A DNA stretch of 64,000 nucleotides, taken from Nymphaea colorata (Eukaryota > Streptophyta > Magnoliopsida > Nymphaeales > Nymphaeaceae). The notes below the pieces were generated by a model. That model was not told where the DNA came from, did not search any database, and saw only the letters and a program-made list of their open reading frames with translations. Positions within the stretch are counted from its first letter, which is position 1; every line of letters begins with the position of its first letter. Below are positions 7,225 to 52,199 of the stretch, piece by piece. The stretch spans positions 2,798,704 to 2,862,703 of the forward strand of contig NC_045139.1 in assembly GCF_008831285.2 (NCBI RefSeq). The letters are read 5' to 3'. The translations under genes and the position numbers were made by a program.

Positions 7225-9430
7225 GTTAAGATCTTGTGCCGCTTCAATTTGTTGTGTAAAGTTAACGATAAGTAACTCTGTCTAGTACTGTTGTCCACGA
7301 ACTAAGCTTCTTGTTGGCAAGATATTTCTTTGCCATTTTTACTGTTCATTGTGAAGGGACCTGTTGCAGATCGGTGGAGTTTCATGGTGGACCCTTCTGT
7401 TGCTTTTCCGGTTTCTAAATTGGCTGCATTGTGTATCACGTCATATATACATGAGAGCAGAAACTATTAGAATTGGTTTAAGCGTTTTCTTGATGCATAT
7501 ATGAATAATCTGTTCGTTTCAGCCTTGTGCCTGTGTGTTTGGTGAAATTTTCTAACAGAATGAAGTTCATGGCTCCTTTTTTATTGCAGCTCAGTGTTTT
7601 CAAATTTGCAAAGGTTGATTGGCCTTGAGACCTTTTATCCCTCCATTCCTAGCTTAGCTAATTTGCATGGAAAGTTGGCCTTGAGACCTTTTTAGTTGCA
7701 AAAGGCTGATAGTCGGTATCCCAAATGTGGTTCTTTCGGCATAACCTTTTAGAGGGCTGTCTAGCCGCGGCTTGCCTTTCAACAGGGAAGTTTCCCAAGA
7801 ATTCCCAAGAAAATGGACCTTTTCACTAGTCAAAAACAGAATCGAGAAAGAAAAACACACGATCGTGTACCTGTATTATGAAGCTTTATCTGCACGATTA
7901 ATCAAGACATGGTTTCAGGGATCGTGAATCTACGACATTACCTAATTGCGATGTTTGTCTTATCTTTAGTGTGAATAACATTTTCAATTTGTTTGTTTTT
8001 CTTTGTGCTACAAAGGTTATTTGCATGGAATAGATTTTTACTGAAGATCTCGTCTGGTGGGATGAAGCTTGAGGATCTTTGGTGCAAATTTCACAAAACT
8101 GTCACAGAGACATTCACAAGGTACAAATGGGGGTGGGTAGGATGTGATGCAGGTCTCACCCAATCTAGTCAACATGGGTTGTTTCATTCCCTGGCTAAAA
8201 CAACTTTTTGTTGTAGGGCTGTGGTCGGATTAAATCGAACTGAGTACAACAAAAAATGCTAAAATGTTCTGTCAGATTTTGCCCATTTGCAATCCTGTTC
8301 TTTGCAACAGCCGGGCCAATTTAATGGGCCTCCTCCGCAGAGGAGAGCAGCTTCAACAACCACCCTACCCATCTTGCGGCACTTATGAAGCACCTATGAT
8401 GAGGGCAACACTGAACTCACAATTCTTAGATTCTATGATCGTCAAGCTAATTACCTTTTGTAGTTTTCTTCTTCTCCTCTTCATGAACGTGATCGCAAAG
8501 ACAGTTGGTCGGTTACCAATTTGAATCTTAGGAGGAATTTGGTAACAGAAACCATATTTTAGTATTTGTCCTAAAACTTGGGTATATTCATGTATCTTTG
8601 AGACAGATTAATGAAACATTAACAGAGTGGTCCTGTCGGCAAATTCTCCTTAGGGCTGAAGGGTTGAGTTGAACATGAATTGCGCCAACTCTAAGCTGGA
8701 CCATTAGGAATCTGAAACTCTCAATGTTGGCTCCAAGTTGGTTGTGTAAGGTTAAGAGTTTCACATAAGCCCAAGGCAGGGGCAGAGGCAGAGGCAGTGT
8801 GGGCATGGTGTGGGTAATTGCCCACACAACCATACAAAAAGAGTTTATTTTTATATTGAAACTTCATATTAGTTATTAGTTTTTTTCATTTACATACAAA
8901 TATGTCTGTAAAAAATTTTGGAATTATATAAATAATGTCTTTTAATTCAAAATTTTCTAACTTTTCCCTCGGCTGGGGATGTACTTTTTCCAGTGTCATA
9001 GCCTCATAGGTATGGTATATTGCATCAATCCTTTGCCAAATATGATAGAAAGATGATACAAGGTTTCATTTCCAAATCAATCTAAAATTTTTCAAAAAAG
9101 CCAAGAAAATTCTAAAAACGAGGTGATATGATATTGGTGAGCAAATTGATACACGTGAATATCATAATCGATTCATGATTTGATTTAAAAAACCCTTCTT
9201 GAAAAAAAAAATATTTGAAACATGATTAAAATTCAATTAAAAATAATAACCACAATCAAATTCCATTACTAATCGAATAGCGTGAGTTGGCTTCGTGTCG
9301 GAGCTTGCTTGAAATTGGATTTGGATCCGTTGAACGATCCCAACGCGCGGGTGCAAATGGGGGCCTATTTCTCTGAAGCAAGATTCCTGGACCGGCTACC
9401 ATAATTTTGGGTCCACGGATCCGATTCAGA
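7225..9430. other. 3' flank of the FLOE-like gene and intergenic sequence
   Basis: The first few hundred bases are probably the 3' UTR. The remainder has several short open frames (for example 7993-8262 and 8264-8524) that show no family motifs, codon structure or splice context. GGCCTTGAGACCTTTT occurs twice, near 7621 and 7678. I see no gene here. Confidence 0.45.
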
Positions 9431-9441
9431 AGGTCCCCGCT

Positions 9442-9474
9442 AGGGTTAGGGTTTGAAACTTTTCGCTATAAATA
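9442..9474 (+). promoter_or_regulatory. Telo-box plus TATA promoter of a non-coding (snoRNA) unit
   Basis: AGGGTTAGGGTTT at 9442-9454 is a telo-box (AAACCCTAA-type) in reverse orientation. It is followed 12 bases later by TATAAATA at 9467-9474. Telo-boxes close to a TATA box are established features of plant promoters for snoRNA and ribosome-biogenesis genes. No long ORF follows, and the next recognisable product is the snoRNA at 10234. Transcription would be expected to start near 9500, but that is inference. Confidence 0.6.
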
Positions 9475-9640
9475 CATGGCCGTCTGATTCTGAGGCTCAC
9501 TCCATCTTCTGATCTTCGTCTTGCGAGTCTCTCTCTTTAGGTGTTTCTTTTTTGATGGCTTAGAGTTTGGTTCTGTGTTTAAGTTTGCAGGAGAATCGAT
9601 CATGGTGGAGCTCTCGTTCTCTCTCTCTCTCTCTCTCTCG

Positions 9641-9672
<32 letters not shown>

Positions 9673-10233
9673 TTCCCTCTCTCTCTAGGCCGCCATTGGA
9701 GTGTTTCAGATCGAGATTGTCTGAGAAGTACTAAGAGCCCAATGAGGAAGCTCACCCAAATGATAGGAAGTGCCGTATGACACATTCCAGCAGCCGCTTC
9801 CCTCTTGCCCGATCCCTTTAGGGGTCTAGGGTTCGGTTGCCGTGGTTGATTTGTCACGGGTCGCTGAGGGCTTCTCTCTCTCTCTTTCTCTCTTTCTCTC
9901 TCTCTCTCTTTCTCTGTGTGTGTGTGGGCGTGTGTTTGTGCTCAATGCCACGTTGACGGTAGCGAAGCGCCGTGACCGTCGATGCTATGATTGAGCAAAA
10001 GTCGATCCTTTGGAGTTTCGCATCTTGATAGGAATCTGTGGACTGATTACCATTCATCCATGGAGCCGATTTGTGCGATTACATCCCTGTTGTGTCCCTT
10101 TCGGTTTTTTTTCCGATTCGATTTCTTTCTTTCTGATTCATTTTATAAAGGTTGCATTTTCTGTGTGGGCCGATTGCTACTCATTTTTGTTTTATCGGAT
10201 CCGGAAGAATGTAACGATTTTTGAATTAGTCTA

Positions 10234-10341
10234 GGAGAAGCCGATGATGAGAACATTTATTATTTATTCTGGAATTACCGTCTGATGGTTTAAAATCTAT
10301 TTTAAGCCCTTTGATGTGCAATGGCAACCTGAGGCTTCTCC
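10234..10341 (+). ncRNA. C/D box snoRNA, predicted guide for 2'-O-methylation of 18S rRNA (snR77/SNORD65-type site)
   Basis: All parts of a C/D snoRNA are present in order. A perfect 9-bp terminal stem pairs GGAGAAGCC (10234-10242) with GGCTTCTCC (10333-10341). Box C is ATGATGA (10244-10250), box D' is CTGA (10282-10285), box C' is TGATGTG (10312-10318) and box D is CTGA (10329-10332). Directly upstream of D' lies CTGGAATTACCG, which is complementary to CGGUAAUUCCAG in the 530-loop region of 18S rRNA, one of the most conserved rRNA segments. By the D+5 rule, A10277 pairs with the U of GGUAAUU and would direct methylation there. I recall this as the site served by yeast snR77 (Um578) and human SNORD65 (Um627). 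The C'-D spacing is only 10 nt, so a second guide is unlikely. Confidence 0.85.
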
Positions 10342-10699
10342 CCACTTTCTTCGTACTTTTAGACCTTAGCATAATCTGTCTACGCTACGTGCCCTATGAA
10401 CTGAGATTTTCATTCTTTTAATCCATCGAAAAAAAATAAAAATAAAACCGTGTTACGGCTCTAATTTCTTGTGTCTTGGTCTCAGATGTTTGAGATCAAC
10501 TCTGTCGTTTTGGTGTTGCCGATTGATTTCATATCTGCTTTGGAAAGTCTGACTTTTAAGACAAGTTTTCTTTTTAGTTTAATTTTGATTCAATACTTGC
10601 TACAATTTTGTACTCAAGAGTAATGGCAATATATGTCATTTAATACGTTAGCATTGGATTTTGTTATTGTAAAAAGAAGTGACCGTAATTGGATGCCGC

Positions 10700-10901
10700 A
10701 GAAGATAAAGGATATCAGCACCTGCGTTCTTAAAAAGATGAATTTGGGTTTAGAAAAAGGAAATCATGAATTCAAAAGCTTGCTAATGAAAGATGATGTA
10801 AGAAGATAAAGGGTATCAGCACCTGCGTTCTTAAGAAGATGAATTTGGGTTTAGAAAAAGGAAATCATGAATTCAAAAGCTTGCTAGTGAAAGATTATGT
10901 A
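10700..10901 (+). repeat. 101-bp tandem duplication, two copies
   Basis: AGAAGATAAAG(G/A)... begins at 10700 and again at 10801. The two 101-bp units differ at only a few bases (for example GATATCAGC versus GGTATCAGC, TTAAAAAG versus TTAAGAAG, GATGATGTA versus GATTATGTA). No ORF or complete snoRNA box set is present, although GATGATGTA in copy 1 resembles a box C. It lies downstream of the snoRNA in the presumed host transcript. Confidence 0.85.
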
Positions 10902-20555: not shown

Positions 20556-21634
20556 TCATGCCCACTTAGCCATCAAGGACATGAACCCAGCACCCAAGAG
20601 CACCGCCATGTACGCCTGAAACTGAAGCTTCATGTTGCTCTGCAACTTGGGACCCAAGAAATCTGCTGCCAGAAGGTCGACGAGCGCCATGTAATTCAGC
20701 AGCCCCGCCGAACAGCCATTCAGAAGGCCCTGCACAATGAGGGCAGTGGGGCTGTTTTCGCTGTAGACATTGGACAGGCCAATCCCCAGGGCCACCCCAA
20801 ACGGAGTGGTGAAGGCGAAGAAGAACGCCATGACGGCTTTGGTCCCCAGTTTGTACTCGGCCTGCGGGTAGTTTTCTTTTCCAAATGAGAAAGAGAGAAA
20901 GATGGCAAGCAATTGCAGAGAGATTTTGGGAGAAGAACGAGTGAAGAAGAAAAGGCAGAGAAGCGGCGTGGACCTGGAGGATGCAGCCGCCGAGGCCCAT
21001 GCCTTCGAAGAGTTGGTGGAAACAGAGGGCAGCGACCAGCGGCCTGATGGTGCAGGGGTTATCTGAAGCACCCAGCGAGAGGCCTATTATTACAGAGTGC
21101 ACAATGATCCCAAGTTCCAGCACCTGCAGAAACAATGGCACCGCCTTTTCAATTATAACTATAACTCGGGAATGAATTCGTGTTAAACCCAATTTTTCTA
21201 TGGCCTCGTAGGAGGATCTTGAACAGAAGCAGGTGTTCCTTTCGTTTCGTTTAGCTCAAATTCAGCAGTTCTCAGTATAGATTTACTGAAAAAATCTTCT
21301 TGTGGCTGAACCACTATAAAAAGGGTTCCATTCTTCGTTCATTGTTCAATCGAAGACGGTGATTTTCTAATGACAAGATTCAAGAACTCTTTATTTCCTA
21401 TATGTATTGACTAACTAATTACTGATAAACTTGAATTCATGGGCACTCCTCCAAAAATAAAAAGCAAGAAAAGTATTAACTGAAAAGGGTAGTTGAATAC
21501 CCATCGGTCCAATTTGAATAACCAATATAGAAACTATCTGTCCAATGGTTTAATTATATAATAGTTAATGGAACATGTGAAGTGTAAATATGAGCACCAT
21601 TTTATGCACCAGTTACTCATAATCTTTGTTACTG

Positions 21635-21676
<42 letters not shown>

Positions 21677-22702
21677 CAATCGAATTCAGTGGACTGCCTC
21701 TGTAATTGCAAGTTTTTTTTTAATTTTATCGCTAAAAATCATTGTAAAAGATATGTTACTGTCAAAAACTGCTGTTAAATAACTGACAGTCATTAGTGAA
21801 TCTTTTGCAATGATTTTTTTGCGATCCAACATAAAAAAAAAAACCCATAAAACTGTTAATGCTTCAGCTAAAAGTAACATGTATAAAATTTTTCCATACC
21901 TTTTACTATATGTTATATTAAATTTATGATATTAAAGTATAAAAACAATTAAAAACTTTTCCCCGAGAGAAATTGGTTTAAAATAGATTGCTCAAGAAAT
22001 TGGTTTAGCGCAAAGGCAGACTTTACTCGACTAAAAAACAACAAACCTTGAAGAAGAAATAAGAAGTAAACCAAAAACTGACACTGAAACGAACTCATCG
22101 CGTACCTGAGCGACGACCCGGTGGCGGAGGAGCTTCCGATCCTTCCCATCTTTGTCCACCCCAGCGGCCACGAGCCCCGCCGATTCGGCATCGGCCACCA
22201 CCACCACCACATCGCCAGCCCTGTCTGCCGGCTTCACCTTCCCATGGATGCTGGTCGCGAAAGAGTCGACCATGAGGGTGAAGATGGCCGACAGCATGGC
22301 GACGAAGGTGGTGAACGGGAACTTGTGCCACGGGGTTTCCGGCAGGCACGGCGACGTCAGGTCATCGAACGAGTCGGGAAGGACATGCATGTACCCGGTC
22401 GCGAGGATCACGCCGCTGGAGAACGCCTTCACGACCGCGAAGATCTTCCCGTCGGGGTGGAGCATCGGCAGGGAGCGGGTGACGAGCGGCAAGCACACCC
22501 CGATCATACTGGCCACCAGGATGGCAAAGATGGCAATGACTTTCAACCGCAACGCGGCATCGGAATCGTGGCAGCCGCCTGATCGGCCGGCGCAGGGTCC
22601 TGTCGGCGCGACGGCAGCGGCCGGAATGGCCGAGAGCAAGAGTCCGGCGATCGCCACCAAGAGCAGTTCCGCCGCCGAAGCCGAAGTAAACCTAGAAGCC
22701 AT
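20556..22702 (-). CDS. ZIP-family zinc/iron transporter (IRT/ZIP type)
   Basis: Three exons on the minus strand: 22702-22106, 21123-20974 and 20861-20556, all phase 0 with GT-AG borders, giving 350 residues, the usual family length. Residues 1-32 look like a signal peptide, followed by a short Cys-containing segment ([10 protein letters not shown]). Eight membrane segments can be traced: about 51-74, 86-112, 128-150, 200-219, 228-248, 258-280, 286-312 and 326-350. The signature helices IV and V carry H208-S209 ([15 protein letters not shown]) and H235...E239 ([10 protein letters not shown]), the intramembrane metal-binding residues of the family. The variable cytosolic loop at 151-199 has only two histidines and none of the usual HxHxH clusters. 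The role is uptake of Zn2+, Fe2+ or similar ions into the cytosol. Substrate cannot be read from sequence. Exon 1 is strikingly GC-rich compared with its surroundings. Confidence 0.93.
21637..21675. repeat. (AT)n microsatellite inside ZIP intron 1
   Basis: About 19 AT units inside the first intron of the minus-strand ZIP gene. Confidence 0.93.
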
Positions 22703-23251
22703 CTGAGAATTCTTTCTCTGCGCTCTTCTTTTGGATCTGCTGGCTAGGCATAGAAACTTGTCTTGAGCAGAACCTGCATTCTAGTAAACAGTTGGAAGAA
22801 GCAACGACATGGGAAAAGGAAAAGGAAAAACAAAATAGCAATTCAAATTCAAAGACTGGTTTAAGCTGCAAGAAGCTTGTTAGCATCTTCAAAAACAAAA
22901 TACGCCCAAAGACATGCAATGATTTCTACGCCAGCCATAAAAAAACATAACAGTACCCTGAAAAAGCAAGTCTTCAAAGGCGCCATTAAACAAACGTTTA
23001 CCATGAGGGTAGGTGAAAAGAGAGGACCTCATCACTGTTATCATTAATGTATTTGTTTGTTTCTTGACTAGTTGACAACTTGGAGATGTTCAGCCACATG
23101 TATGTCAAAGGAGCACCAGTTCATGCCTGACCGGAGACAGGCTTTTAGTTCTATTCATGAAAAAGAAGACAAATAAAAGGCCCCACTAGAGATATTGCAA
23201 TCTGAACTTTCCTCTTGAAAGTAAATCATGGATTTTGAAATGCGGCTCAAA

Positions 23252-23319
<68 letters not shown>

Positions 23320-24600
23320 GAGAGAGAGAGAGAGAGAGAGAGAAGTTAGTAAAAACCAAACCTTCAAGTGAGGGATAAAAACCACACGATTGATTTTTTG
23401 TTCCAAAACTATTTTACATACAATATAAACATGTTAATTTTAATGTAAACATGCTTTGATTCAAGTTCTTTTAATGAAAAATGTTGTTGATTTTTTTATT
23501 ATCATGTCATGAGGGCCGTTCATTTTTCTATTTCAGTGACTTAATTATGAGGATAATGTAGATATACAAATATCACAACTCAAAATGTAGCACAAATGCA
23601 TCTATAAATACATAAAATAAACTCTTAGTTTCTGAAGGGCATTAGTGTAGATGAGAACTCAAGTTCTGTGGACTAACTTCATCAAAATAGTTAAAAAAAA
23701 TGACTAAAATAACATGCACAATGGAAAATGTGTAATTGATCGCTTATAAAAAATAAATCAGATAATTTATCATTTAGATACCAGTCTACTTTAAATTAAA
23801 GTGGTGAAAAAACAACAATCATACGGTTTAGGACTTGGGCAATGTAAATTTTATGTTTTTTCTTTCAGTATAGGAACTTTCAATCAATGAATGCATTCCA
23901 ACAATGAAAATAACAAACACATTACCGACTTGTTTTGACTTTTCAAAAGTTTTAAATGGAGCTTATGAGAATTGTTCCTAATAGACATATTTTTATATGA
24001 GAAACTAGATTAAGATTAAGATTAAGAACCTAAATGTTCTTAACTATATCCATCTCTTTTCATTCAGTGGTACCCATATATACTAAAGAATGTTACATTT
24101 GCCATGGTCAAAATTTAATTTCATAAACATAATGTATATAGGAAACGTAGATTTGGACAACCATCATTTGGGCACTACTTTTTAAAAGTTTAACCAGGTA
24201 TAAAACTAAAAAAGATTGAACGCCTAGTATTGAAAATGAAAGTCACGAAATTGGATGCCCATATGGGATCTCATAATCTCAAAAGGTTAATGCCAACAAT
24301 GGTAAAATCCGCACAAAATTCATTTCACATATCAGAATTTGTTCCAAAATAAGATTTTCTGTAAACTGAAGAATTCATATAAGCTAAAATACAAGCATCA
24401 TGAATATATAATTTCACTAGTTTCTAACTCACTATATGCAACTAATAAGTAACGCCAAATCTGCAATACTAAAAACGCCAAATCTGCAATAACAGCAAAT
24501 CCCCAAATGCTACATAATTCACGCATGACAAATAGAATTATAAAATCCCCAAATCTACAGCAGTGAAAAGAATAAACGCCTGTGCTGCTGTGAAGGAGAA
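22703..24600. other. Upstream region of the ZIP gene and gene-free AT-rich sequence
   Basis: The first 100-200 bases form the probable 5' leader and promoter of the ZIP gene (read on the minus strand). No coding sequence is supported. It contains a compound microsatellite at 23256-23343. Small repeated words (GCCAAATCTGCAATA, near 24453 and 24477) are the only other structure noticed. Confidence 0.4.
23256..23343. repeat. Compound (TA)n-(GA)n microsatellite
   Basis: About 30 TA units run to 23315, followed after two bases by about 13 GA units. The minus-strand frame with SLSLSLYIYIYI is an artefact of this repeat. Confidence 0.95.
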
Positions 24601-40900: not shown

Positions 40901-43900
40901 TTTTAAGCTTCAAGGTGTACAAAGTTGGTTTGATTGGATTCTACGAGTTATATTTTTGGGGATTTTGATTGTCATCTTAGAGGGCTTTAGGTCCACTAAC
41001 TTTAAGTTATATCCCACTTGTCACTTTGCGGTATTATAGATGATTTAGAAACAGTGTTTGTCATATTTTCTAGTGCTTTTAGTAGAATTCTTTCTCTTTA
41101 ACTGTCCTATACATCTTTGATTTGCTTTCGACTAATAGCAATGGAATTTATTCTTTAGTAAAACAACTGTGAAAATATGCAGACTCATTCCAAACCTAAA
41201 AGGTTTCTACACTTAGGTTTCATGTTGTGGCATTCAAGCTGACCTAAAAACTTATTTATTGCCTATTTAGCTTCCTTATGTTGTTGTTAGTATGATCAGT
41301 TGCAGGCTTGGCAGTTGCATCTAAGTTTGATGTTTGCACCTTGATTTGTATCTCTTTCTGGTGTTTTAGTTGTACCATCCAATAGATTGTGTATGATATT
41401 AGCTAATACTCTTTGAATTCTAGGACTGAGGCAGACCCTGTTATCCTTGCCAAGTATGTGGAAGCACTACTAAAGAAAGATAAGCCGACAAAAGAACTGC
41501 AAAAGCTTTGCTTAGAGAATTTGAGTGAATTTCTTGGTCATGGTATGTTCACGTTTGCTTTTTCATTTACTTTGACTGGAAATGCTTGTTGTCTTGCCTT
41601 TTAGGTTAGTGAGATGTTATTTTTGATGGCATAGAAACAAATTATGATCTTTAACTTAGAAAGGATTTCTGTGTTCGTTCCTTTGTAAGAAATTGATGTG
41701 GCATTCACTTGAAAGAGATAATGGAATATGATACTGTGTCAACCATGCTCTTCTACTATGTATTCATGATACATTTAATGAAAGTGTAAAAAGCATGCTC
41801 CATGCTTTTAAATAGTAATATCTACCTTAGTCGATGTTTAACTAGTTGCTCGGATTTTCTTGGGTCACAGTTTATTTTGACTTTGGGACTCCATCCATTG
41901 CACTAATCTGATAGTTTGGGATGAGCAGTGGTTCAATGTCAATCTTGTGTGATCCTTGGTTTGTCATACTATATTTTGCTTATTTTTTTCTTGTAATTGC
42001 TGTTTCTTATATCTTGCAGAGACAAACTCCTTTATTGCAAAACTGTTCCAGGATCTAGAAAATGGTTCCATCTCCACTGCCGCCGAGAGTAGAGAAATAC
42101 AAGAGCGAGTTGAACCATCACCAGCTCCAATTTCTATTGATACTACTGAAATAAAAGGCTCTCCTCCAAAAGAAGAAAGATTTTTGTCCACTGCTCACTA
42201 TAATGATCTTGAAAAGAATGATATAACTGATGATGAAGACGATGATCGCAATCACAAGCATCGTAGACGAGAAACGCGGTCCCAGTCTTTGGATAGAGAT
42301 ACCCAGGATCAGCTTATGCATAGACCTGGTAGAAAGAGGAGCAAACCTTTTGAGAATGGACAGATGTTCATGGATGCTGAGCCTCATTCTGCTTTCCAAA
42401 ACGATCTTGCTAACTCTGACAGAGATACATCCTTGAAGTTTGAGAAACGGCGTCCTGGTTTGACACCATTTCCTCGCCCTTCTTTTGACTCTGGCCCAAG
42501 AACAAGAACAGCTTCCTCTTTGCGGAATGATATCAATTCTCGTTTTGATACATCAGTTTCATTTGGTCGACCTGCAGTAGGTAAAGGAAGAGGAAGGGGT
42601 ACAGGCATATGGAATGTGCATGATTCAAGATTTAATTCAGTAGAATCTCTTGATTTTTCATCTTCATTGGCTCCTCATGGACCAACAGCCTCAAGTATTT
42701 TTCCTGGAAGGGGATTGACTAATACTGCAAGTACACCTAATGCATCTTGGAGTGCATTTGGGATGTTACAAGGGATGCCTAATGGTGGACTTGATCCACT
42801 TCATCCACTGCATTCTGGTTTGCAAGGAGCACTTCCACGACCTTTAAATCCTTCAATAAGTATTGGCTTGCCTAGGGCTCGTTGTAGAGATTTTGAGGAG
42901 CGTGGATTTTGCCTGAGGGGAGACATGTGTCCAATGGAGCATGGTGTAAATCGGATTGTTGTCGAAGATGTTCAGGTTTGTTAACTCTATATCCTCTTTT
43001 TCTAGCTCGTGGTTTGCCATTGCCTGCTCAGTTCTATTGAGTGTGATATTCAGCGAATTTTATCTTGTGTATTGGATATGGTTAGTGGATCATTTGCATT
43101 TACATGTCTGTTTGTCCTTTTATTTTAGACGATTACATGCAATTGATGTTTTGGGTTGCATATCTAATATGTGGCACTGACACTTATTTCACTTGACACA
43201 TGTCTTATTTATAGCTATATTTTTCTTTACATTTAACACATTTCGAGATGCAAAGTTAGTGGCAAGGCTTTCTTTTGATTTGATTAATACAAATGATTTC
43301 TGTCTGTATGAGTTTTGCATGCCTAGTGTGTCTGTGACTGCATTAGCACTTATTTGACATGGCATATTTCCACTTAGGAGTTAGGTGGTCCTTCCATCAT
43401 GTGTATATCAAAAGGCTGTACCATAAGTGGTCCTTTAGGCTAGTCCTCCTGCTGGTACTTGGTTGTGTTATATGTCTTTATGTGCAATCATGATTGTTCA
43501 TTTGCTTTTGCTCTGATCTGGTCAAATTTGATAGCTAAAGGATATCCTCAATTATACTGATAATTAATGCTGTTCCTTGCAGAGCCTTTCCCAGTTCAAT
43601 CTTCCGGTATCAATTCCTAGTGGTCAACTCTTGGGAATTCAATCGGGTACAGGGCCTGGACCTTCAGCATCTTTGCCCCCAACACCACTTTTGTCCAGTA
43701 ACAGGGGTCCAGAAGCTAAAACGGGAAAATATGGACTGGGTGATGAAGGCTTCAGCTTAAATGGAGCTTTATCAAGTGCAGTTACTGATAATGAAGCTGA
43801 CTTGTATGACCCTGATAAGCCATTGTGGAATAATGAGCGTCTTGAGGCATCAAGTGGTCTTGCCAGACTCTCCTCACCTAAAATTGATGATGCAGAACCT

Positions 43901-46900
43901 GCATGGGATGCTCATTCTTCTGATAGTCATAGTTTTAGATTTTCTGAGGGTAATGAAAGTAATAGGACATCTCGAAACGTAGGGATTTCTGGTTTGGCAC
44001 AGACAACCTCATCTGTGTGGGGCAGGATTGGCAGTGGCAGCAAAATAGAGGTGGCTGCTAAGTTGGGCAATGATCCGGCCAGCAGTAGTTATCCTGTCAC
44101 AGGGAAAAAGGAAAATGAAGTGGAGAAATTGATCAATGTCCAAGATGTATCTAACCAAGGAAAATCAACAGTTAGGGAATTGGAGTCCAAAAACTCTTTG
44201 GCTACACGTAGAATGCGCATGAATTTTGTGCCTGGAAATGGGAAGGCTTCTGAAAAAGCATATAGTACTCTATTTGTAAATTGCATTCCCCAAAAGAATA
44301 ACAAAAGGGAGATCCTTCTTTCCCATTTTCAGAAATTTGGGGATGTTATTGATATATATATACCTCCAAACAGTGAAAAAGCTTTTGTTCAGTTCTCTAG
44401 AAGGGAAGATGCAGAGGCTGCATTGAAGGCACCAGATGCAGTAATGGGCAATCGTTTCATCAAGTTATGGTGGGCAAATCGTGATAATATTCCACATGAT
44501 GCAGAAGGCAGTATCAACAATATGTCTACTGGCTTCCATGTTGGGGTTCCTGCTGCAGTTATGTCCCAGGCTGATAAGGGAAAGGAAAATCTCCAGTCTT
44601 CTTCAAAAGCAGTTACACACCCTGCTCCAGAAACTTTAGCTTCTAAGGAAGCTGCAGCTGATAGCCTCAAAGCAGTGCCTTTGCAAAAGAAGTTGGAATT
44701 GGAGATTTTAAAGGAGGAGCTGCGGAAGAAGCAAGAAATGCTAGAACAAAAGCGTAATGATTTCCGGCGGCAGTTGGTTAAACTTGAAAAGCAAGTAAGC
44801 CCTAGTACTTTTCACTCAGTTTCATAATATCATGGCACAAGTGCGGCATCTCAATTGAAGGTGCTATTTAATGATGCACTCTGAACACATCAGTGAGATG
44901 TTTTTCTATCTTTAAGTTAATGCATTCTTATGCATAGGTGCCTGTCTGTGATTGATGAGATTTACATTTGCTACAAGGCCTGCTAGCTTGATATTTGATA
45001 GAGGCTGGGCTAGCTTACAGGGGCCTGAACATCTTAAGGGGCTTGAACTTTTGGAACTTCAACAACTTATACTGGCCTTATTGAAGCTTGGCTGGCATAA
45101 GTTTGAGCATCACTGTATTTGGAACTCAAAAGGGTTAAGCCTAAAACACAGCCTTGAGGTCCAAGTCTGCTTTTGTCCTGTCATAAATGAATCGTTATCT
45201 CAAAAATACAGGACTGTGTTGTTATATTCTTAACTATTGTAGGGTTGTAACCATAGGGCTGGCTCTTCATGAAATTTTTAAATTCTAAAACCCACAGAAA
45301 AAAAAAAAGAAGAAAAGAAAAAATAAATAAATCAGTAAATATCCCCAACCTCCCCTGCTCCATGTGAATATCCTGGTTCCACTAGAAGTCTAGAACCTCA
45401 GACACAATTATATTATATCTACTTCGATTAAAGGATACTGCTTGTTGAGGAATTATATCTTCCTTTCCTTTTTTTTTTCATTTGATTTATTAAAAATTTA
45501 CATGCTTACCTTGCAACTTCAACTTTTTCTGTCATTATGAGTTAGATGCCCTTTTTTGTGATGCAATGGAAGGCCAAAAATCCAATGGAAGCCCACAAAA
45601 TTGATTCTTGAGTGTACTGAATTGCAGTCTTTGTGTTTGCATTTGGCTGCATATCCTTCAATTCACAAATTTTCTGAGCTCATGATAAATCAGATCTACA
45701 TGCTTGCCTGCAACTTTAACTTTTCTGTCAATATGAGTTTATTTATTTTGTCCTCTTTTTGTGATACAATTAGAGGCCATAAATCTAATGGAAACCCACA
45801 AAATTGATGTCTGAGTGTGTGAAATTGCAGCCTTTGTGTGTTTTGGGTTTAGCTGTTTTTCCTTTGATTCACAAATTTGCTGAACTCATGATAGATTCAG
45901 AATGACTCACAAAATTTTACTTTTTTTAACTTGACTATCTAAGTCATACTGCCACCGTGTCATTTCCTTCAAACATATGAAACTTGAGATCTTACTGGAT
46001 GCATGCAAATTCATTTTGCCTTTTGCAGGGGATTAATGTTAAGGGCGAAACTTCAGGCAAGGCCATTCAACAACAGAAAGCCGTTACTGTATCTGCGACT
46101 GATGCTACGTCTCATTTTAAAGTTTCAGCTCCTAGTTCAGCAACACATATGGAAGTAAAAGTGCTGGAGAAAAGCAGTTCAGGGGACAATGTTGCTTCCC
46201 CTAGCTTGAAGGCATATCCAGGAATACAAGCACCACCAAATAGTTTTAGACAGTCAAGTTGTTTACCTTCCCCAATGGGCGTTTCATCGGTTGTCAATCG
46301 CTTTAAATTGGATAATCGTCCTACTTCATTTAGAGTCCTCCCACCCCTTCCAGTTAATCTTGCTAATGTAAGTTTCTGTTCTGGTTATGTAGTGCATCAT
46401 TCTGGTTTGTATTAGCTTATCATAGTTTCCATTATTTGGTTTGGTTTTTACTTTTTACTGCATTTTTAATGTCACATTATCTGATATTGTATAAAGTAGC
46501 CAAGTAGGTGTATGTTAAAGTCCCCCCCACTGGTTTCATAATATCCGTCATTGAAATTATTGATATCCTTGTTTCAGGCCTCAGTTCTAAAGGAGCATTT
46601 TGCAGCATTTGGTGACCTAACTGCAGTTGAAATAGATGATGTAGATGGCCAATCTGACACTGTGGATGAAAATCCTGTGAAAGAGTATTCTGCGCGAATA
46701 ATATTCTCAACTCGCCGGTCTGCAGAGCGTGCATTTCTAAATGGCAAATGCTTACAGGGGCACAATTTACAGTTTGTCTGGATTCCAAGTTCTTCTGTTT
46801 CTAGAGGGCATACTTCTGGTGAGAATTCTGAAAGTTCCCTAAAGAAGGAGTCTGCTGAGGAAATATTGCCTGAAGGGCTAAAGTCTTGCTCTTCGTCCCC

Positions 46901-50991: not shown

Positions 50992-51154
50992 GGGGGTGGT
51001 TGGCAGTTGAAACACTAATATAGTGATTCTTGAATCCATGCCAGATATTGGGGCAGATCATGGAATACTAGAATGCAGTGTTCCATGAATCTGCCTGAAT
51101 TTTTGGCACAGTTTCATGGAATAGCATGTTAGTATTCCTGTTAGAAAATGCCCC
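50992..51154. mobile_element. MITE, copy 1 of an adjacent pair
   Basis: The left end is GGGGGTGGTTGGCAGTTGAA. The right end in reverse complement is AGGGGCATTTTCTAACAGGA, leading to ACTAATAT and ACTAACAT respectively. TAA flanks the left side (TGTAA|GGGGG) and TTAA the right (CCCCTTAA), compatible with a PIF/Harbinger-type TAA target duplication. The interior repeats CATGGAATA/TTCCATGAATCTGCC in both orientations. Confidence 0.6.
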
Positions 51155-51158
51155 TTAA

Positions 51159-51322
51159 GGGGCTGTTTAGCAATGTGAATAGTTTGTTACGGTTCCATGA
51201 ATTTGCCTGAAAGATTAGGGCAAAATCTTGGAACAATATGTTACAATGTTTTATGAATCTGGCCCAATCTTTGCAGCAGATTAATGAATCAGTAACATAC
51301 TGTTATTATTGCCAAACGACCC
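51159..51322. mobile_element. MITE, copy 2 of an adjacent pair
   Basis: The left end GGGGCTGTTTAGCAATGTGA is an inverted match of the right end, which in reverse complement reads AGGGTCGTTTGGCAATAATA. The interior TTCCATGAATTTGCC and TTATGAATCTGGCCCA words match copy 1. The two copies are separated by only four bases (TTAA). Confidence 0.65.
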
Positions 51323-51329
51323 TGAAAGG

Positions 51330-52199
51330 CCACTTTCTTTCCAATATAGCCTAGTAGTGCTGGTCTACATGGACTCGAGTTCAGAGCTGTGACATGCAAT
51401 TTCAAAAGAAGAAAAAGGTGCAGGGACATCATTGCTGTATCTGTGTATGAATACACTTGCTGTTTGTTGTATATATATATGCACACATACACACTCGCGC
51501 TAGGGTCAACTTGAACGCTAAACACTTCGTTTGTACAATCCAACCATAACATATGATCTTAAGAATGTTTTTGATAAAAATCATATTTAAACCTAATCAT
51601 TTTTTTGAGTTAGAATGTTTTTGTTGGTTATAAAAAGTGAACAGCTCTTATGACATCAAAATTTTACCACAGAAGAATCAATATTTTTCATAAAAATAAC
51701 TTGAATTAAGACTTGTTTTATTTTAGTGTTTATAAACATTGCAGAATATTCATATTTTCTTTTAAATATATTTTAACAAGAATTTAAGAGGTCGACCAAA
51801 GTGGTCTTGGATATATCAATTTCTATGTGTGTGTGTATGTATGTATGGAAAATATCATGTATATCAAGTGTAATGCAATCTGGCAGAATGTCTCAGTCCA
51901 CCAGTTTCTTCTGAAAATGACTGCACGCATGTGATCTATGTTTGAAGACCTAGAAATAAGAAGTCATCATGCTTTTATGACTACGTGCTATTTTATAAAG
52001 ATTTAAAAAGCAGTCTGAGCTTGTTTGGCTTATGAATCCTATTTTTGCAATTTGAAAACGTTTTTTTTTTTTTGGTTCCATGTTTTTGAAGCATGGACAT
52101 CACATCCATGTTGTTAGCTTTCTCTGAAAACCATACTTGCAATTGAATTGTTATAACCTTAATGAATTGCACTCGAGTCTACAATCTCTCTCTCTCTCA

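Follow-up and report, generated by a model that had tools for sequence, protein, structure and literature searches.

The interval 10234-10341 of a 64,000-nucleotide stretch of Nymphaea colorata DNA (the window) is best explained as a box C/D snoRNA gene of the plant snoR77Y family, the third in a snoRNA cluster transcribed by Pol II, whose processed product would act as a single guide for methylation of the 530-loop U of 18S rRNA and would carry a hairpin between boxes D' and C'. We place the probability of this reading at about 0.94. The original prediction of a C/D snoRNA aimed at the 18S 530 loop is supported by the anatomy of the locus, the complementarity of its guide and a match to snoR77Y. 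Its label 'unannotated-type' is not retained, since the family is already known (RF01178) and this copy simply scores below the gathering cut-off. The cluster and the D'-C' hairpin are additions to that prediction.

The locus contains RUGAUGA and CUGA motifs enclosed by a terminal stem (Table 1). As predicted, the stem is a perfect one of 9 bp (zero mismatches), with box C starting 1 nt past the 5' arm and box D abutting the 3' arm. The boxes lie in the claimed order C, D', C', D, with a gap of 26 nt between D' and C'. The claimed C'-D spacing of 10 nt holds when C' is taken as the 7-nt TGATGTG.

Table 1. Elements of the putative snoR77Y gene and of its probable cluster, by position in the window.
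Feature	Position	Strand	Remarks
Telo-box AAACCCTA / AACCCTAA	9446-9454	-	likely cluster promoter; motif as defined in PMC4660826
TATA box TATAAATA	9467-9474	+	likely cluster promoter
snoZ112, box C/D snoRNA, first gene found in cluster	9736-9872	+	RF00337, 57.2 bits (cut-off 40)
snoR2/U65, H/ACA snoRNA, second gene found in cluster	9939-10086	+	RF01292, 116.2 bits (cut-off 44)
Putative snoR77Y orthologue, box C/D snoRNA gene	10234-10341	+	RF01178 match and anatomy; mature ends approximate
Terminal stem, 5' arm GGAGAAGCC	10234-10242	+	pairs with 10333-10341
Box C ATGATGA	10244-10250	+	
D' guide against 18S rRNA GCGGUAAUUCCAG	10269-10281	+	12 Watson-Crick pairs and one G-U; 10277 opposite target U
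Box D' CTGA	10282-10285	+	
Predicted 9-bp hairpin between D' and C'	10287-10308	+	10287-10295 with 10300-10308; MFE and centroid folds
Box C' TGATGTG	10312-10318	+	TGATG (10312-10316) is the C'-like core; 7-nt extent read off the sequence
Box D CTGA	10329-10332	+	
Terminal stem, 3' arm GGCTTCTCC	10333-10341	+	

Nucleotides 10269-10280 are an exact 12-nt complement of 18S rRNA CGGTAATTCCAG. The 12 Watson-Crick pairs between the guide and the 18S stretch CGGUAAUUCCAG are joined by one G-U pair, between the preceding rRNA G and U 10281, which lengthens the duplex to 13 bp and brings it into contact with D'. Box C/D guides, of ~10 nt at least, lie immediately before D or D', as is the case here. 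The 12-nt complement had been described as directly abutting D'; the complement is present, but the 12-mer stops 1 nt short of the box and it is the 13-bp duplex, with its G-U pair, that abuts it. The U of GGUAAUU is the partner of nucleotide 10277, five nucleotides before D', as claimed for the D+5 position. This U is U578 in the 1800-nt eukaryotic SSU rRNA of database contig L009, which served as the reference for site numbering in place of Arabidopsis 18S rRNA. The site had been likened to that of yeast snR77 and human SNORD65, which we take to be HBII-135.

The likeness to snR77 is borne out: the best-scoring Rfam family is its plant counterpart, snoR77Y, and both stand in one row of a table together with Neurospora Nc CD24 (18S-Um575) and human HBII-135 (PMC2780460). 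Yeast Um578 is listed with snR77 in PMC8307265, and Arabidopsis 18S U582 is listed with SnoR77Y in a RiboMeth-seq study (PMC8053127). The locus joins snoR77Y membership to a D' guide for the 530-loop U (yeast U578; listed Arabidopsis U582), and is best read as a C/D snoRNA that would guide 2'-O-methylation at this position.

Database searches provided rRNA sequences for comparison. The 18S pattern occurred in 0 stretches of viral contigs and in 8 stretches of contigs filed as bacterial. All 8 match eukaryotic-type SSU rRNA models of Rfam at the motif (7 SSU_rRNA_eukarya; L010, SSU_rRNA_microsporidia, 149 nt). The 13-bp guide match is found in 8/8, a count that is not an independent test because the search pattern holds all 13 letters. 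One stretch, L006, is eukaryotic rDNA that also matches group I introns three times and lies on a contig filed as a Thermodesulfobacteriota MAG, an apparent contamination. L009, filed as Planomonospora parontospora, carries a 5.8S alongside its SSU and a 5S on the opposite strand; it looks like yeast contamination. A search of viral contigs with the 16-nt guide block returned 3 stretches (L001-L003), which gave no Rfam match at cut-offs or at E up to 0.1 and were treated as chance.

The RF01178 model matches 10238-10340 over its full length (positions 1-85 of 85) with 43.8 bits and an E value of 8.6e-7 when 1.3 kb is searched, or 4.2e-5 for 64 kb. The alignment lines up the C box, the guide and D' block, and the D box, and puts C' elsewhere than TGATGTG. 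An Rfam scan at gathering cut-offs reported the neighbours snoR2/U65 and snoZ112 and left 10234-10341 unreported, because 43.8 bits is less than the RF01178 cut-off of 52, a curators' threshold and not a biological feature; the family search of the locus therefore makes no call at cut-offs and yields snoR77Y over the full model at a relaxed threshold. The alignment suggests that additional bases near the centre of the RNA, together with a C'-D part unlike that of the model, keep the score low. We count the locus as a divergent snoR77Y member because stem, boxes, guide and target agree, and it is very probably an ordinary, working plant snoR77Y gene.

The sub-threshold score and the shortened C'-D interval would speak for a decayed or redundant copy, one among several paralogues, whose expression or processing has been lost. 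Footnote a of the PMC8053127 table (gene variants not shown), attached to SnoR77Y, also points to several copies being usual. We nevertheless consider such a copy very improbable, as all boxes, the perfect 9-bp stem and the full 13-bp guide duplex are intact and the locus adjoins two well-scoring snoRNAs behind promoter-like elements. Still less probably, the locus belongs to another C/D family, for instance snoR38, and has generic boxes in common with snoR77Y. The interval is also hit by snoR38 (34.5 bits, E 0.0017) and by snoZ157 at 22.6 bits, but the top score belongs to snoR77Y, whose consensus carries the guide block TGGAATTACCGTCTGA, and the guide region is mismatched in the snoR38 alignment.

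On both strands of the whole window, the candidate is the 1 C/D pair whose stem reaches 6 bp or longer, and its guide is the sole 12-nt complement of L009 18S rRNA ending at most 1 nt from a CTGA. The motifs of the scan (C, RTGATGA; D, CTGA) were chosen once the candidate was known. Across 100 dinucleotide shuffles, C/D pairs whose stem reached 6 bp averaged 0.03 per window; 0 had a stem reaching 9 bp, and 0 had an 18S guide inside a stem-closed C/D pair. A shuffled window holds on average 0.2 complements of 12 nt to L009 18S rRNA that end 0-1 nt ahead of a CTGA; taken alone this feature is only mildly unusual, and it is the combination of elements that carries weight. The assertion that the arrangement is hard to obtain by chance agrees with its absence from all 100 shuffles. 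Chance resemblance, for which the frequency of the 12-nt complement might speak, is as improbable as a different family given these shuffles and the cluster context.

Folded in full, the RNA is predicted to form both its terminal stem and the D'-C' hairpin (z -3.79; 1/200 shuffles equally good), and the hairpin region 10282-10318 folded alone gives z -2.89 (2/200 equally good). In the free-RNA fold, box C further pairs with 10257-10264, and D' bases with C', unlike in the snoRNP shape. Programs of this type leave the protein-bound kink-turn out of account, and a protein-bound snoRNA would not keep these off-pairings. We treat the D'-C' hairpin as an accepted feature because PMC12218551 describes an internal stem-loop as possible between D' and C' in snoRNAs.

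We found no convincing rRNA guide in the C'-D interval in the rRNAs tested. Positions 10312-10328 were compared with four rRNA stretches, none known to come from Nymphaea colorata: L009 18S, L009 5.8S, L006 LSU (3' end cut, with an intron) and L009 4627-8000 (matched by Rfam as LSU only up to 4963). The best pairing comprised 7 Watson-Crick pairs (L006), or 9 pairs including three G-U (18S). Among the matches listed against 8 loci, at most 8 per strand (runs of at least 10 nt, up to two G-U), two runs covering the interval well, at L007 3986 (13 nt, no G-U) and L005 2676 (10 nt, two G-U), were rejected as targets as they lie outside rRNA genes; other overlapping runs in L006, L010 and L011 fell on the non-rRNA strand or outside rRNA and were set aside. 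SNOR77Y-1 is listed beside Arabidopsis LSU-C2340 in PMC6461891, and LSU-C2340 is absent from the Arabidopsis RiboMeth-seq table (PMC8053127). Because the C'-D side is short and has no convincing match in the rRNAs compared, we favour a single-guide reading, as had been proposed. We suggest tentatively, and at somewhat less than even odds, that it represents a lineage-specific form of snoR77Y, a natural single-guide variant in which the second guide, on the C'-D side, was lost and a newly acquired hairpin restores the C'/D' module from a distance.

The three snoRNAs all lie on the + strand within 606 bases, and a relaxed C/D scan of 9480-10900 recovered snoZ112 and snoR77Y only. This arrangement makes snoR77Y the probable third member of a plant snoRNA cluster, which a single transcript would span. 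The telo-box and TATA box, ~0.26 kb upstream of snoZ112, are likely the cluster promoter; elements of both kinds are described upstream of plant snoRNA polycistrons in PMC4660826. The motifs are weak evidence and the assignment is likely, not proven, since the window holds 14 telo-box matches and Site II lies ~0.7 kb off. This Site II, at 8768 on the minus strand, is the sole one in 8440-9736 and falls within the 1-kb span used by PMC4660826, but with 30 Site II matches across the 64 kb its position means little. CT-rich simple repeats at about 9619-9687 and 9872-9917 flank snoZ112. The order snoZ112-snoR2/U65-snoR77Y is described in none of the paper titles and abstract openings listed.

Elsewhere in the window, two minus-strand ORFs within 20559-22780 match the ends of a ZIP zinc transporter (PF02535) and are probably exons of one gene. 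There is an ORF with an RNA recognition motif (PF00076) at 43568-44824, and a gene for a DUF1421 protein. The snoRNA neighbours, the ZIP exons and the DUF1421 protein are of plant type and agree with a plant source. An Rfam match to MIR821 at 51130-51351 (42.5 bits, E 0.00021) is far under the cut-off of 249, and our guess is a repeat-derived inverted structure, not a miRNA gene. A minus-strand match to mir-1277 at 23244-23322 (33.2 bits, cut-off 81, E 0.022) is probably chance.

In the mechanism that we favour, Pol II would transcribe snoZ112, snoR2/U65 and snoR77Y as a cluster precursor, and after its processing the terminal stem and boxes C and D would assemble a standard snoRNP. The D' guide would pair over 13 nt with the 530 loop, where the U lying five nucleotides away from D', equivalent to yeast Um578 and, by the listed guide, to Arabidopsis U582, would receive a 2'-O-methyl group from fibrillarin. 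The 9-bp hairpin would fold the long D'-C' spacer and bring C' near D', and the C'-D side would leave the RNA a single guide. The gain is one of annotation, an extra snoR77Y gene that Rfam misses at cut-off, within a three-gene cluster; the biology is already known, the same modification appearing in tables for yeast, Neurospora/human and Arabidopsis.

Like the telo-box plant snoRNA polycistrons described in PMC4660826, the cluster has several snoRNAs in a row on the same strand, preceded by a telo-box and a TATA box; unlike them, it has no Site II close to the telo-box, the only one in 8440-9736 standing ~0.7 kb away. The same 18S U is listed as the target of yeast snR77, Neurospora Nc CD24 and human HBII-135 (PMC2780460; PMC8307265 for yeast Um578). 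Nc CD24 differs from the Nymphaea gene in its listing in PMC2780460, which gives it an intronic location and a D guide to U5. With snoR77Y (RF01178) the Nymphaea copy shares a full-length model match, the guide block TGGAATTACCGTCTGA and the same kind of target. It differs from that family in its length (103 nt matched, against an 85-position model), in the D'-C' spacer, which is longer and is predicted to form the 9-bp hairpin, and in a C'-D interval of 10 nt against the 17 counted in the printed consensus, ~7 nt shorter.
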